In this document: piece after piece, positions 1-27,824 of the stretch
How the letters are laid out: every line of letters starts with the position of its first letter
Numbering within the stretch: position 1 is the first letter of the stretch
Assembly: GCA_034190875.2 (NCBI GenBank)
Contig: CM067353.1
Coordinates: forward strand, 33,881,175-33,945,174
DNA: 64,000 nt
Direction of reading: 5' to 3'
Source of the DNA: Urechis unicinctus
Taxonomy: Eukaryota > Annelida > Polychaeta > Xenopneusta > Urechidae
Position numbers and translations under genes: made by a program
Notes under the pieces: model-generated
Databases searched by the model: none
The model's input: the letters and a program-made list of their open reading frames with translations, nothing else
What the model was told of the DNA's origin: nothing

Positions 1-341
1 CGCTGAGTGCTGAGTGCCTTTTATAGGCATTTTACGGGTAATGTGTACATGCATAATAAAACAAAATTTCATACTTATTTTAGTAAGCGCCCTTTCTAGG
101 CAATATATAATAGTAGTGGTGTATAAATTAATCTCCTAATATGGTTGTTATTCGTCGAATTAAAATATGATCGAGGCGGAAAATCATTGTGTAGAACCGG
201 ACACAGCTTAATGCTACTCTGATCACAGTGGCAGACGACAGGAGGCCAGTTTACATTGTTCACGATTTGCACCGAATTTCCAAACTTTGTATGTGTTTGT
301 ATGTTGATTATATTCGTTTACTGCTACGACTCGAATGGCAG
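1..341. other. No recognisable feature
   Basis: AT-rich sequence with no recognised coding, RNA or repeat signal. The last 30 bases (T-rich, ending in CAG at 339-341) could be the 3' end of an intron for the candidate exon that follows. Confidence 0.5.
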
Positions 342-455
342 TGACTGCATCCAAGACAAAGTCGGTCACTGTCGGGGTTCATGTCGCTCTCAGAGGATCT
401 TTGACGACCCTATTCAAAGATGGGACCGTGATCCAAGGCATGAGAAACCAGTCAG
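342..455 (+). CDS. Candidate internal exon, cysteine-containing, unidentified
   Basis: An open frame is bounded by a possible acceptor (T-rich stretch then CAG at 339-341) and a possible donor (CAG followed by GTAGTC at 456). The length is 114 nt, divisible by three, with phase 2 at both ends. The peptide reads DCIQDKVGHCRGSC, then a polar, charged stretch ending in HEKPV. The C-x-G-x-C pattern (CRGSC) is seen in secreted cystine-knot proteins, but the other knot cysteines are not in this segment, so no family is assigned. No neighbouring exon was found. The donor departs from consensus (GTAGTC rather than GTAAGT). It may equally be a chance frame. Confidence 0.22.
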
Positions 456-3400
456 GTAGTCTGCCGTATAAATCGAAGATGAAACAAAAATAATTTACAT
501 AGAATTGAAAAGGATTTTTCTTCATGGGTTGAAATGATACATTACAACGACGAAATATAAAATAGGATTAATTAAGATAACCGTAGGATAATACAGCACG
601 ACAGGTACTCGATCAGATCAACTGCTTCAGTGGCTTAATTTCATTGCTCGGAAATAACAGGTTACCCTGAAATGATTTTGTATCGACCACAATCTAGCTA
701 GTGCATTGATACCGTGCTTGGCAAAACAACTTTGCGATGGCTGATTTAATTTGTTCTTCATCTGGCCGAGATGATCCCTAGAGTTGCACAAATTGCTCAC
801 GGTTTTGTATTATTAAGATAAATCTTAAGTGGTTACAAATGAAAGTTATTGCAACAACAAGAAGCAGAAGAATAAATGACTCCGCCAGTATTGTAAAGGT
901 ATTAAACCCAATACGAAGCTTAATAATTCTTGAGAGTGCATCACCAATTGAAATACCGGAAACAACCCGAAATACTACGAATATTACGCCGTTGGTATTG
1001 TTTAGTAGCTATCTTGATTCTACTGCTAAAAAGTAGAATTACCAATACGATTACAATCGGTAAGGGAACACAAATCCATTAATCATCGCACGTCTCGGCC
1101 GGGTAATACGCTTGCTATATACGTATACAGTTTGAAATGTAATTATATTTTCTCATTGTATTATTATGATTCAGAAACCAAATTCGTCTCTCTCATTATT
1201 CACTGGTAGGTTATACGTAATGGTAGAGTGCTAACTGGTGTAGCCGTACTCAAATGAACCTGAAAAATAACTTGATTAGCTCAACTGATTCTGAATATCA
1301 TTTGAATACCCCGGAAATAGAAGTTATATGTGTTTTTTTGTGATATCCCGACGATTCCGTTCATGTGCGTCCGTAATCGTAAACGGTCGAATAGCATGTC
1401 GGACATGTGGGGAAAACATTGACGTCATAGATTTGTAAAGCATGAGCTGAATGCATCTTCATTACTACAACTGCTATCAAATAATGCAGCATCGGTTGGA
1501 CCAGCAGATCAATCTGACACATCACTGCCCAAGATACATTCTAATGATTTTTAAAGCAAAATGATATCCCATTAATTGTTTCATACTTCGAATAAAACGC
1601 ACATAATTGGTCAAGGAAAAACTATGCGTTGATGAATAAGGAAATATATTCGTGCTTCACGCGCTCATTAATATCTTTAAGCGTAATAATTGGAGCAGCA
1701 TTATGTACATGACAGGTGGGGGTAAAACTAGCTGCCCTGTATTTCATCAACAATATATCACCAGCACTTTGATTGCTAAGCACTTTATATTTGTCTTCCT
1801 TTGCATGCTACAGTGATACTGCAGTAAGTTTCAAACTACGCATTGTTCGGCAAACACAAACCAGTTATTGTTTGTTTAAAAAACTGTGATGGTTGCTAAC
1901 ACAGTATTTGTGCGACGTTATTGGCAAGTATGATATTAATAATGTGAGTATCCATACGTTGTGCTCAAAACATATAAACATAATTTGCACAGACACATGC
2001 TTACACATGCTAATCTCTCTTGTCTCTGCATTGGTAAATCAGCCGAATATATGACTCGTGAGCCATAGATACAAGGCAATTAAACCAACTCAATGGAGCT
2101 TAAACTATTACCGTGCCACAGAGTTCTTGTTTATATCCAGATAGACATACAGGCGTGTCAAAAGTCTATTTCTTGGTCGCTGTTTAATCCATTGCATGGT
2201 TATTTTCTTGATCTGTGGCGTTTGCCATAAACTTGAACTGCTTTGTAAGCTCTTTGAGCGACACAGTACACCGTTGACTATTAATCCTTAATTGGCCCAT
2301 CGCACCCGAACATTGAACTGTTCAATTAGGGCCATGGTTATTATCTTGCTACGACCCGATTGATATGAGGCGTTCAAAGATACTGCAACAGGCAGTCAAG
2401 TCCATAAGATGGCCTGCTCTCAATTATGGCTTACCCACTGACATATCTAATGGCTGCATGCGTCACGCATAACTATTGTTGTTTCGTTGAGCAAGTGGCA
2501 ATCAAACGGTAATATTCATGTAAAATACTTGATACTACATACGCTACACAAGTATAATCATATCTTAATCATTGTTTTAAAAACAACATATAACATTGTG
2601 GCACCATTTTGCTTGAAATACAGCCTCAAGGATTGTAAAAATTTTTTTTACCCAGCTATTGCAAGAGTAATGAAAACCGGAACAGTACGTACCTTACGGA
2701 ACAATCATATTTATGATTTGCGAATGCACTAACCGTTCATCAAGTAATGAATATTTCAAAACTTACTTTTGAACAGTGAACGTTGTATGTGTTAATCACG
2801 TTAAACTCGAACTTTTAATGTTACATTACATGTAATAATGAACGTGCTATTAGAACAAAAGTGTCGAAATGCCGACCCACCGGTCAGCTAAACACGCTGC
2901 GGATTTGATGATTAAAAATGCTATGCTCTACAGACAATGCACCGTACTATGCTAATATCCTTAGTCCATGCCCACGAAAAATTGCGCACGAAAACCTGTC
3001 ATGTATCAGCTCTAACCTAGTTAGGCCGGGATCAACAAGCTTTGAACAAAACATTCTAGTGTAGATGTCCAATAACTTGTGCATAATAACCACAGACGTA
3101 TTGCTGAGGTGAAGTAGCGTTAGAAAATGACTGGTATTACGCTGTAATTGGTGCATTTAAATTGCAGTGTTGTTGCATTGAGTAACGTGAAACTAATCTG
3201 CCATAGAATACGAAGTGCTAAAATGCACATGTATAATTCAGTACATCAGGGTACTGGGTGTTGTGAGTTTTGTTGTGCTTATAGGACCGGTGCCATATAT
3301 TCGGAAATAATACAGGTCATGAGACGTATTTGCATTGAGTTTCATCCGTGTATTACCGGACAAATGCCGACATTCACTCGTAGTGAAAAGTCATCCATAC

Positions 3401-22958: not shown

Positions 22959-23041
<83 letters not shown>

Positions 23042-23067
23042 TGAGTATATAAGTAAACATTTAAGGC

Positions 23068-23098
<31 letters not shown>

Positions 23099-23154
23099 AT
23101 GTATACATATATATATAAAAAATATATGTATATATATATATATGTACATAATTG

Positions 23155-23186
<32 letters not shown>

Positions 23187-23391
23187 TTTATATATATGGA
23201 TATATATATATATATATGTATATACATTTATATATATATTTATATATATATACATATTTAAACATGTATATAACTATATATAAATATATATATATATATA
23301 AATGTATATATATATATACATATATATATATATACATCTGCATATATGCATATATATATATTTAAATATATATATATATACATATTTATAC

Positions 23392-23426
<35 letters not shown>

Positions 23427-23474
23427 ATATACGATAAATATATAATCTGTTTATCTTTATATATATATATATTA

Positions 23475-23505
<31 letters not shown>

Positions 23506-23516
23506 ATATATATAAA
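22851..23516. repeat. Large imperfect (TA)n array
   Basis: About 660 bp, mainly TA dinucleotides, interrupted by TGTATA, TTTATA, CATATA and similar variants. The variety of interruptions suggests an old array. Many long reading frames (Y/I alternation) on both strands are artefacts of the repeat. Confidence 0.97.
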
Positions 23517-23615
23517 TACCCATTAACACCCATTACACAATAAGAAGAACGTCTAAAGCACATCAATCTATTTTGACATTTTGAACATTCGGTATGATAG
23601 ATAGGTCTGCTTTAG

Positions 23616-23791: not shown

Positions 23792-23795
23792 TTAA
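23792..23795. repeat. Left TTAA target-site duplication
   Basis: TTAA directly outside the left terminus AGGTCAACTAC. It matches the TTAA outside the right terminus. Confidence 0.75.
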
Positions 23796-23819
23796 AGGTC
23801 AACTACAAAGAATTTTTTT
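23796..23819 (+). repeat. Left terminal inverted repeat
   Basis: AGGTCAACTACAAAGAATTT aligns with the reverse complement of the right end, AGGTCACTACAACGATTTT. They match at about 19 of 23 positions with two one-base gaps. Confidence 0.75.
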
Positions 23820-23978
23820 ATTCCATTTTTCCAAAGTTCTATGATTTAAAAGGGTATCGTGACCAAAATAAGGTGACTGCGCGCTTTTTTTCTTTTAGAA
23901 AAATGATTTTTAAATGTACATTTCCCATGTCGAATATGACAAGATACCGCTCGGTAAAATTCGTGAATTTCCGTACAG

Positions 23979-24020
23979 TGACGTCATTCGGGTTGTTTGC
24001 GAATATTCATCGCCATCTTT
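23979..24020 (+). promoter_or_regulatory. Left inward promoter region with CRE and YY1-like sites
   Basis: GTGACGTCATTC (a full CRE palindrome TGACGTCA at 23979-23986) lies 109 bp before the THAP start codon. GCCATCTTT at 24012-24020 is the reverse of a YY1-type AAGATGGC. The same two words occur in the right subterminal region facing its own gene, which argues for a shared promoter design. Factor binding is inferred from the words only. Confidence 0.5.
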
Positions 24021-24095
24021 AGCCTTCCCGGTTGGTTGACAGCGTGTGACTAACTCGTCTTTCTTCACGGTCTGGTGCGTTTCTTGGTGTGGATT

Positions 24096-25600
24096 ATGCC
24101 TTATTGTTGTGCGTTTGGTTGTCGGAACAATGAGAAGTCAGGTGTGATTTTTGTTTGTTTCTAAAAGACATATGCGCCGCATATGGGTATCGAAAGTCAA
24201 GCGTAAACACCGGAGTCCTGCCCTTGATATAGTTATACGACAGTTCTATGTTCTGATCATTTCGAGAAAAGTGCTTATGAGACTGACCCACAGCTGCTCA
24301 AAAGTCTAGGATTTCGTAAGAAACATAGGCTCCGATAAAGTATTGGCAGCTGAGCAGATAGATAAATCAAGTGACAGTGGTGAATCACAGACTGAGGTGT
24401 CACACTCAAGTACTGCCGACCTAGGCTAGGCGAAGAAACTTCGCCTGTCACTGTCAGCGTCCGCGCTGTTTGCTACACCAGGGGCGAGTGCCTTGCCGTC
24501 TGCCGACCATGAAGCTTGCTCTCACTTGTCATTAGGGGTGCAGGCAAATGTTTTGGTGAGTGTCACAAGGCAACTGCATTATTATATATGATGAAAGTCA
24601 TTGGCAGGGATAACTTCTGTTGTATGTATCCATGTGTCTTTTCAGAGTCAATTTGTAAACATTTACATCCTTAAAGGCTATGATGAATGAAATTGTAGCA
24701 TACTTATTGTATTGATACCATAGATGGCTGACAAGTCTCTACAGACACAGAGTTCTATCTTTCCTAGGATAAAGAAATATTCAAGAGGTACCCAAGTTGG
24801 CCCATCTCACTAAAAGTGTCACCAGGGGCACCCAATATGAGCCCCAGGAGGAATCTGTTGGACTGGTGGACAGCGATGATGAGATGGAAACTGACCCTGA
24901 CTATGACTTCACTGACAAAGTGATGATGCTGAGGTGGATACTGATGATGACATGGCATTTGAAGAACTGTTAGATAAATATTGTTTTGTTTGTAGTGTAA
25001 TCACAGGGTTTTATTTGATGGAAGAAAAATTTAGCTCACATAATGCTTATGTACAGTGGTGTTGATCTGGAGGATGGCCCTAGTCAGAATCAAAGATACC
25101 GGGGGAGTTTTGCTTGTTTTGAACAAATCGGCGTGAATGGACACCGTAAGATGTGGGATTGCCAACCTTTTACAGGAGCTATGCCCGCAGGGAATTTGTT
25201 TATGGCTTCAGGGATTTTTGTTAGTGGCAGTAGTGCTATTAGAACACTGAACATGTTCAGGTATGGGAAAATTCCAAGCCTGTCAAAGAACCAATTTCTT
25301 TAGGTGTGAACATGCATTAATCTAAAATGAAACACATGTTATTTTGACATTTATTACCGAAACCTGAATATGTTTCATTTGCACAAACATTGTTACCCAA
25401 TTAAAAATTGGCATATAATATAACTTACTTATTATATGACTATCATAAAATATGAATATAATTGATTTGCTTCAGACCATGTACATCAGGTGCTTGATCT
25501 AAGGCAAAAATACCCAAGCTACAGACTTGCTGAGGTCCTTGCACTGTCCCACCACCTATTGCCTCCCAGTACGAGAAACCTGAAAAGGATCTTCTCGTAG
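24096..25600 (+). pseudogene. Broken THAP-domain transposase (Kolobok type)
   Basis: The start MPYCCAFGCRNN has the C-x4-C start of a THAP zinc-finger, a sequence-specific DNA-binding module. A stop at 24162 and two compensating frameshifts interrupt it: RRIWVSKVKRKHRSP lies in the +1 frame. The original frame resumes with VLCSDHFEKSAYETDPQLL, supplying the C-x2-H ligands. A serine-rich stretch follows, with a donor at 24556. Next comes an acidic linker (DSDDEMETDPDYDF) with repeated GTQ words, as in transposases of this family. At 25097-25300 the sequence includes RKMWDCQPFTGAMPAGNLF, matching the conserved region before the catalytic domain. Another open segment with an acceptor (25476-25600) includes QKYPSYRLAEVLALSHHLL. 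No GDGR-type catalytic segment is found, and several stops and frameshifts are present, so the gene is dead. Confidence 0.75.
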
Positions 25601-25618
25601 GTGCTCACAGGTGTCGAT

Positions 25619-26799
25619 TCAACCTGACCAAGAAATCTTCCGCTCCATTGTAGATAACCTGTATATTTGCCGCCCGGGTCGGAGAAGGATTTTTCTAACA
25701 GCTGTTACCACACAGGCTGCCAGCACTTTCCTGTTTCTTTTGTCCAGTCTGTGACATATCCAGAGTGTAAACTGGCGGTAGGCTAGATACCTGAATAATC
25801 TGAAGCAATGTGTCAATAAGTTGTCTATGGTTTTAAAATAAGTTGTATAGTTAAAAAAACAATTGTCATTTTGTGAACCATTCCCTCACTTCATAATGTT
25901 AATGTAAGCTCTGCCTCTGGATTTCATGTAACTGGCATTATTTATTCTTGGCTATGTGAAATATATTGTAGTTCATCAATATGAACACTGAATATTTTGC
26001 ACAATGGAATTAATGTTCCCTTTGTAATAAATATGATTGTTCAACCTCAAACCATCCTTTTTGGTAGCAATAATGGCTAACTTACTCATTGTAGAGATCT
26101 CATCTCCAACAGGTCTGTCCATTTGAATAGATTCAAATTTGGACACTTCCAGCACATTTTTATTCATGCAGCTAGCCAGGAATCTGGGATGCTTGGTGAT
26201 GCATGTCCATTCCTCCGTTAGAGCCATCACTCTCTCCAAACTTCTGTAGCACTCTCTGGCTGTGTCAATTGGGATGCAGTAATGACAGCTACACCTAAGT
26301 TAGAGATATAATTAAAGAGTCATTGTAAATTTATATTTGTAGTACAATGAATGAATATAAAAGGAAAATTCTTTATAAACTGCATGCAAACATCTGTCCA
26401 CAATATTCAGTGTGCTCAGGGTACAATGACAAAGCTACATTCACTAGCCAAGTACTATTTATTGTAGTAGTTAGGTCTGTCAACATACCATCCTCAACTT
26501 ACAGAATGTGTAAATTTATGGGGTAAATGAAACTAACGATTATTTTTTACCAGTTAATATAGTTCAATAAAGCTTGGGAAGGGTATTCTAAAACTTACCA
26601 TTCATCGAAATCTTTTGTTGATTCTTCATCCGAAGCGGACCCTTGAGTTCGACTTAGAGTTAAGGCTCCCGGTGTCATTTCGTAGTGTGACTTGGATTTT
26701 TCAACTCCCGTCCGTATTGGCTCAAATAAAATAGTCATGGACATGATTTGCCCCAATGTTATGCTATGGGGACTCGTAAACTTCATCAGTAGACGACAT
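25619..26799 (-). CDS. P2X7 C-terminal (ballast)-domain-like protein, three exons, intact frame
   Basis: Exons are 26786-26599, 26294-26086 and 25824-25619 on the minus strand. The introns (304 and 261 bp) have GTAAGT donors and TAG acceptors. The spliced length is 603 nt: 200 codons plus TGA, with no stop. Exon 1 encodes SPHSITLGQIM and FEPIRTGVE, then an acidic, serine-rich linker. The first junction completes Trp63 and gives WCSCHYC (63-69), then EC at 77-78 and TCITKHPRFLASC (93-105). Exon 3 gives YLAYRQFTLW (145-154), then VLAACVVTAVRK (166-177) and GRQIY near the end. This order (cysteine cluster, CIT..., Y.AYR...W, C-V...VRK, G.Y) is that of the P2X7 receptor's cytoplasmic zinc/nucleotide-binding tail. 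No transmembrane or channel part is present. A slightly upstream ATG (26799) fits the family's N-terminus but is out of frame by one base; ATG at 26786 avoids this. Function is unknown. Confidence 0.75.
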
Positions 26800-26897
26800 G
26801 GCTTTTCAAAACGGTGTAATTTTAAAATCCAAACAATCGTTTTTCGCTTCGCTCGCTCGCTCGCAGTCTAATTCTCTTGGAGGCAGCGCAGCAGGAA

Positions 26898-26957
26898 TGA
26901 CGTCACGCAACGTGCACCTAGCGGCCAACTGAGGCAAAATGGCATCGCAAAGATGGC
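26898..26957 (-). promoter_or_regulatory. Right inward promoter region with CRE and YY1-like sites
   Basis: TGACGTCA at 26898-26905 reads GTGACGTCATTC on the minus strand, identical over 12 bp to the left end. It lies 111 bp upstream of the ATG at 26786. GCCATCTTT (minus, 26957-26949) is present again. The region 26845-26960 is GC- and CpG-rich relative to the window. Confidence 0.5.
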
Positions 26958-27086
26958 TTCGTATTTTCTTCCGAATGAAACCTTATCGGTGGATTTTTAG
27001 TACTTAAGCATGCCGTTGCAATGAATTATGGGTCCCCGTTGGTTTATGAGTTATTAATCTTCAATTTGAAACACATTATAAAGAAA

Positions 27087-27110
27087 TGATGAAAATCGTT
27101 GTAGTGACCT
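27087..27110 (-). repeat. Right terminal inverted repeat
   Basis: The reverse complement starts AGGTCACTACAACGATTTT and pairs with the left terminus at 23796. Confidence 0.75.
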
Positions 27111-27114
27111 TTAA
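27111..27114. repeat. Right TTAA target-site duplication
   Basis: TTAA directly outside the right terminus. The next bases are already the TGTA tetranucleotide array. Confidence 0.75.
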
Positions 27115-27149
27115 TGTATGTATGTATGTATGTATGTATGTATGTATGT

Positions 27150-27189
<40 letters not shown>

Positions 27190-27345
27190 ATGTATGTATG
27201 TATGTATGTATGTATGTATGTATGTATGTATGTGTATGTATGTATGTATGTATGTATGTATGTATGTATGTATGTATGTATGTATGTATGTATGTATGTA
27301 TGTATGTATGTATGTATGTATGTATGTATGTGTATGTATGTGTGT

Positions 27346-27405
<60 letters not shown>

Positions 27406-27416
27406 ATGTATGTATG

Positions 27417-27448
<32 letters not shown>

Positions 27449-27462
27449 TGTATGTATGTATG

Positions 27463-27494
<32 letters not shown>

Positions 27495-27669
27495 TGTATG
27501 TATGTATGTATGTATGTATGTATGTATGTATGTATGTATGTATGTATGTATGTATGTATGTATGTATGTATGTATGTATGTATGTATGTATGTATGTATG
27601 TATGTATGTATGTATGTATGTATGTATGTATGTATGTATGTATGTATGTATGTATGTATGTATGTATGC
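27115..27669. repeat. (TGTA)n tetranucleotide array with (TG)n patches
   Basis: About 555 bp of TGTA units with TG dinucleotide patches at about 27151-27173 and 27346-27388. It begins at the base after the TTAA of the transposon. Long frames of M-Y-V-C or T-Y-I-H on either strand are repeat artefacts. Confidence 0.98.
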
Positions 27670-27824
27670 ATAATCACAAATCAGTTCGACCGCCTAGTAA
27701 TCCGAGCGGACCTAGTTACCATGTGCTAGGCTATGGTTGTTGTCGTAGCCAGGCATACATTTCTATCAAAGCTTTATGAAAGGGCTTTGCATGTGGGTAT
27801 GCTGTACTTTGTTAAACTATCCCT

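Follow-up and report, generated by a model that had tools for sequence, protein, structure and literature searches.

We analysed a 64,000-nucleotide stretch of Urechis unicinctus DNA (the window), in which an earlier note, made from the letters alone, had read three minus-strand segments as an intact gene for a P2X7-tail-like protein inside a DNA transposon. The segments are present as it described, with GTAAGT donors (after 26599 and 26086) and TAG acceptors (before 26294 and 25782), and they lie within an element that ends in AGGTC/GACCT and has TTAA on either side. Facing them on the plus strand are the remains of a transposase gene. Its C-terminal end overlaps the end of the three-exon gene, here called KolX, on the opposite strand, the two genes meeting tail to tail (Table 1).

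Table 1 Features of the element and its two genes, in window positions
Feature	Position	Strand	Details or basis
Left TTAA target-site duplication	23792..23795	.	Same boundary TTAA in 9/9 other copies examined
Whole Kolobok element, 3315 bp, internally deleted, non-autonomous	23796..27110	.	Genome copies
Left terminal inverted repeat, AGGTCAACTACAA...	23796..23817	+	Window and copy comparison
TGACGTCA palindrome upstream of the transposase gene, element position 184	23979..23986	.	Also at position 184 of L009
THAP-like zinc-finger remnant, transposase start, stops inside	24063..24335	+	tblastn to L009 THAP-like reading, 44%, E 2e-15
Conserved transposase segment ahead of the catalytic core, 80 residues	25061..25300	+	Window and genome search
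Transposase C-terminal segment, two frames	25466..25644	+	tblastn to L009 C-terminal reading, 39% and 71%
KolX exon 3, as in the earlier note	25619..25782	-	Private one-base insertion displaces the last motif
KolX exon 2	26086..26294	-	CxCxxC retained, CC pair gone
KolX exon 1	26599..26799	-	Early TAG; private one-base insertion
TGACGTCA palindrome upstream of the KolX gene	26898..26905	.	Also near the right end of L009
Right terminal inverted repeat, near complement of the left	27090..27110	-	One base missing compared with 9 other copies
Right TTAA target-site duplication	27111..27114	.	Window and copy comparison

A multi-copy Kolobok element with a shortened transposase

The ends of the element were spotted by eye and afterwards tested against copies; an automated inverted-repeat search of the window did not report them, probably owing to a one-base gap at one end. 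Searching the genome (1.19 Gb, 926 contigs) with the element gave 1930 candidates, 40 of which were scored. Sixteen of these 40, the window counted, matched the element over its full length (1–3315). The other 15 are 93–96% identical and 3196–3325 bp long, lengths that indicate a shared internal deletion, and several further places among the 40 matched as two adjoining pieces (1–2677 and 2670–3315). Both ends were inspected in nine other copies, all of which have near-identical termini and TTAA on both sides within dissimilar flanks. This fixes the borders of the element, and the proposed location inside a DNA transposon thus stands. Two marks of Kolobok transposons, a 4-bp TTAA duplication and termini of the form 5′-RR...YY-3′ (PMC9587614), were found in all ten copies examined, the window counted, with AG...CT as the terminal bases throughout. 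A long GTAT/GT microsatellite (window 27114–27670) starts exactly at the right TTAA of the element, and a long TA-rich simple repeat (23000–23520) lies just to its left.

Kolobok elements were first described by Kapitonov and Jurka 2007 (as cited in PMC9587614). Those of the Kol0 kind encode a transposase and KolX, a protein that resembles the C-terminus of P2X7 and adopts a ballast fold (Kojima and Bao 2022, PMC9587614). The window element has in common with them the TTAA, the 5′-RR...YY-3′ ends and the combination of a transposase with a predicted ballast-fold protein. It differs from the published Kol0 elements in that the window copy, its 15 full-length matches (judged by length) and a further locus, L063, are without the transposase core, and in that KolX of the window is divided into three exons and is broken in this copy.

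The transposase is recognisable in parts only, and the names given to these parts rest on likeness to L009 (the representative of a second family in this genome), on transposase readings at other loci and on general Kolobok features. One fragment, read with one stop left out, scored 15.7 bits against the Pfam THAP profile, below the cut-off of 23.9; five other fragments had no Pfam match. The 80-residue segment occurs at no fewer than 150 places in the genome, the window counted (150 of the 150 scored, out of 774 candidates). Only ~165 nt separate it from the C-terminal segment in the window, from which we conclude that the catalytic core is absent. In the transposase readings of L024 and L025 the acidic residues of a core are visible by eye. 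No member of the window's family with a complete transposase was found among the 40 scored of 1930 candidates, and one candidate with a longer frame that was inspected, L063, proved to be another deleted copy whose transposase core is missing.

Reading frame and decay of KolX

The first exon junction creates the motif WCSCHYC, as had been noticed earlier, and a TGA stop lies at 25621–25619. The claim of exactly 201 codons without a stop did not survive: the three segments sum to 574 nt, or 191.33 codons, and the frame from the ATG at 26799 runs into a TAG after 11 codons. The longest ATG-to-stop reading of the three exons has 186 residues and begins at an ATG at 26786. The ATG at 26799 is nonetheless likely to be the ancestral KolX start, since it reads MSSTDEVYE where the first exon of L009 opens with MSSSDEDYE (compared by eye). 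Intron 2 has two candidate acceptors: the one that aligns with the L009 family is TTCAG, which would begin exon 3 at 25790, 8 nt upstream of the TAG acceptor, and the TAG acceptor itself, with exon 3 from 25782, does keep the frame open.

Exons 2 and 3 were aligned with seven copies of the L009 family (L020 being incomplete over exon 3). Compared with them, the window lacks 6 nt at the CC pair and one base immediately before donor 2. A second alignment used ten copies of the window's own family, picked from the best matches among the 40 scored of 1930 candidates. The gene is thus present in other copies of the element, and with this, as with the profile match below, the reading passes the refutation tests set in the earlier note; over the KolX stretch the ten are 95–98% identical to the window, with a mutual average of 97%. 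Exons 1 and 3 of the window each contain a single base that is missing from all ten. The 186-residue reading joins only by way of the exon 1 insertion, and the exon 3 insertion throws the last ballast motif out of frame. In all ten other copies, and not in the window, exon 3 continues into that motif, so this part has been kept open in the family. The early TAG of exon 1 is common to nine of the ten, L042 having a different codon. The CC pair of zinc ligands is absent from all eleven sequences, and five of the ten family copies have lost ten further bases at that site. The description of the gene as intact, contradicted by the two private insertions, was dropped after these alignments. Because its frame is broken, KolX of the window copy probably yields no working protein; a shortened protein from an inner ATG may be made.

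The proposed likeness to the P2X7 tail was borne out by profile comparison. Read from the ATG at 26744, a 172-residue product aligns to Pfam P2RX7_C over profile positions 61–180 of 192 with 32.7 bits (E 9.2e-8), above the curated cut-off of 23.5 bits; a match of the same product to PIF2 is below that family's cut-off. A single-sequence search of solved structures returned P2X7 as the best match (20.3 bits, E 0.003). Judged by these sequence comparisons the homology is real, but the copy is worn. The order of motifs is that of the P2X7 ballast domain: CxCxxC, a later C, a YR-type segment and a final C. Five zinc-coordinating cysteines out of the seven expected are clear in the window product, and at most one is left of the CC pair. 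The receptor, in contrast to the window product, retains the CC pair and has a channel domain; a Pfam scan of the window product, which returned P2RX7_C and one match below cut-off, found no P2X channel domain.

Relatives in the genome and the nature of the locus

A genome search with Pfam P2RX7_C gave at least 150 matches (150 scored of 2592 candidates), all above the cut-off; KolX of the window is not itself among these 150. This greatly exceeds the number of ZCD genes per species reported in PMC7016195, which is below ten. Around such ballast loci, 26 longer stretches were retrieved for comparison. The family represented by L009 is ~3.77 kb long, and its parts are arranged as in the window element. 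Of 12 listed copies, nine are flanked by TTAA at either end, the exceptions being L009 (right end cut), L016 and L019; L010, which matched the family only in part, falls outside these 12. L021 holds a tandem array: three L009-family copies in head-to-tail order, separated by nearly nothing, two of them being cut by the ends of the locus.

Transposase probes were run against 28 loci (L007–L034, with L007 and L008 only 3.4 kb long) and the window. L001–L006 were left out; of these, L001, L002 and L005 fall within longer stretches. A transposase or THAP-like piece was found beside the ballast domain in 21 of the 28 loci and in the window, a count in which the sources of the probes (L009, L024, L025, L029 and the window) are among the positives and 13 of the 21 loci (L009–L021) belong to one family or close to it. 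These probes found no such piece at the remaining seven (L007, L022, L026 and L031–L034). In all 21 positive loci the piece lies on the strand opposite the ballast domain; L029 has one additional piece, ~4 kb away, on the same strand. The tail-to-tail pair of transposase and KolX is thus seen in at least three families of this genome, namely the window, L009 and L024/L025 types. A single animal genome can, then, hold ballast domains in abundance, often next to transposase pieces, and annotations of stand-alone P2X7 tails in invertebrates should therefore be checked for transposon ends.

We are confident that this locus represents a decayed member of a multi-copy, non-autonomous family of Kolobok DNA transposons of the Kol0 kind. 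The ancestral element would have carried two genes with their tails meeting: on the plus strand a transposase whose start was THAP-like, and on the minus strand a three-exon KolX, predicted from homology to be a zinc-binding protein of ballast fold. KolX may once have served as an accessory protein of transposition. The family appears to have spread once the transposase had lost its middle part, and the copies were for that reason presumably mobilised in trans, by a transposase made elsewhere that would have moved the element into TTAA sites by cut and paste.

We weighed three other accounts of the locus. The three exons might be a functional gene of the host, or a KolX that has been domesticated, sitting by chance in transposon remains. 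The 186-residue frame is open, the 172-residue version from an inner ATG scores above the Pfam cut-off, and there is a possible precedent in zebrafish Nanor, which has been proposed to be a domesticated KolX (PMC9587614). The frame, however, depends on a single base found in none of the ten family copies, the end of the domain is disrupted by a second insertion and the CC pair is gone; moreover, the exons are enclosed by the precise termini of a repeated element whose copies are nearly identical over this very stretch. We regard a host gene as very improbable. It is just as improbable that KolX is a recent capture by a transposon normally without it. Its orientation opposite to the transposase and its own set of exons would suit a capture, but the recurrence of the same tail-to-tail pair in three or more families argues against it, as does the description of Kol0 transposons as two-gene elements (PMC9587614). 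'Cargo', the term used in the earlier note, is accordingly the wrong word for a protein that is the regular second gene of these elements (PMC9587614).

Least probable of all, to the point of being negligible, is a chance resemblance between a cysteine-rich segment and the P2X7 tail. The modest score against the best P2X7 chain in the single-sequence search would be in keeping with chance, but the profile match is far stronger, and against P2X7 chains two relatives in this genome score 68.7 bits (L001) and 63.3 bits (L002). This profile match and the chain of relatives rule the possibility out. The locus is thus best read as a worn Kol0-type transposon with its own KolX.

Two kinds of KolX, the P2X7 tail and a shared palindrome

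The central idea of the earlier note, that such transposons offered a route by which the receptor acquired its tail, is already published (Kojima and Bao 2022, PMC9587614), with P2X7 arising by fusion of a P2X4-like gene and KolX. A literature search for KolX returned nothing beyond that paper, and one for Kolobok together with P2X7 added a review to it. Stand-alone ballast proteins and the capture of the domain had been described by Rump and others (PMC7016195), in whose text the word stem 'transpos' has zero occurrences. Nanor and the other animal stand-alone ZCD proteins resemble the window product in having a stand-alone ballast domain at the C-terminus; they are presented as genes in the available text of PMC7016195, transposons going unmentioned there, whereas the window domain lies within transposon ends. 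The present locus independently supports the published derivation of the tail of P2X7, a receptor of inflammation, from a transposon protein. The element family is new here, as may be the occurrence of two KolX types within one genome.

In the three-exon kind (window, L009, L018 and L063), 14 residues separate the CC position from the following cysteine, and in the window and L009 the gene adjoins a transposase whose start is THAP-like. The spacing is 6 residues in the single-exon kind (L001 and L002 types), as it is in P2X7, whose tail is encoded by the single exon 13 (PMC7016195). The available text of PMC9587614 and PMC7016195 contains no statement of a split into two KolX kinds. In single-sequence searches against P2X7 chains, the window's three-exon type is not this genome's best scorer: L018 reached 26.8 bits and the window the 20.3 bits given above, scores lowered by the decay of the window copy and by the lack of the first exon in the L018 query, and both lie far below those of L001 and L002.

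A 14-row tree unites the three-exon sequences, the window's among them (100/99). P2X7 stands weakly beside the L001 type (60/36), and the single-exon sequences do not cluster together. Given this weak support, the split of the single-exon kind and a long-branch warning, the tree is no proof of descent; it leaves the placement of P2X7 unsettled, and we treat the two-kind pattern as a lead rather than a result. Our tentative suggestion, to which we give clearly less than even weight, is that the vertebrate P2X7 tail, with its one exon and 6-residue spacing, would derive from the single-exon KolX kind. If true, this would pin down the donor lineage more closely than the available text of PMC9587614 and PMC7016195 does. 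With two KolX kinds to compare, the question of which lineage donated the tail becomes testable.

The window's family and that of L009, though diverged, also have a palindrome in common: TGACGTCA is found in both at element position 184 and again ~200 bases from the right end. The same palindrome occurs outside the element at window positions 1420 and 13143. Its placement upstream of each gene would fit a putative promoter signal common to the two.
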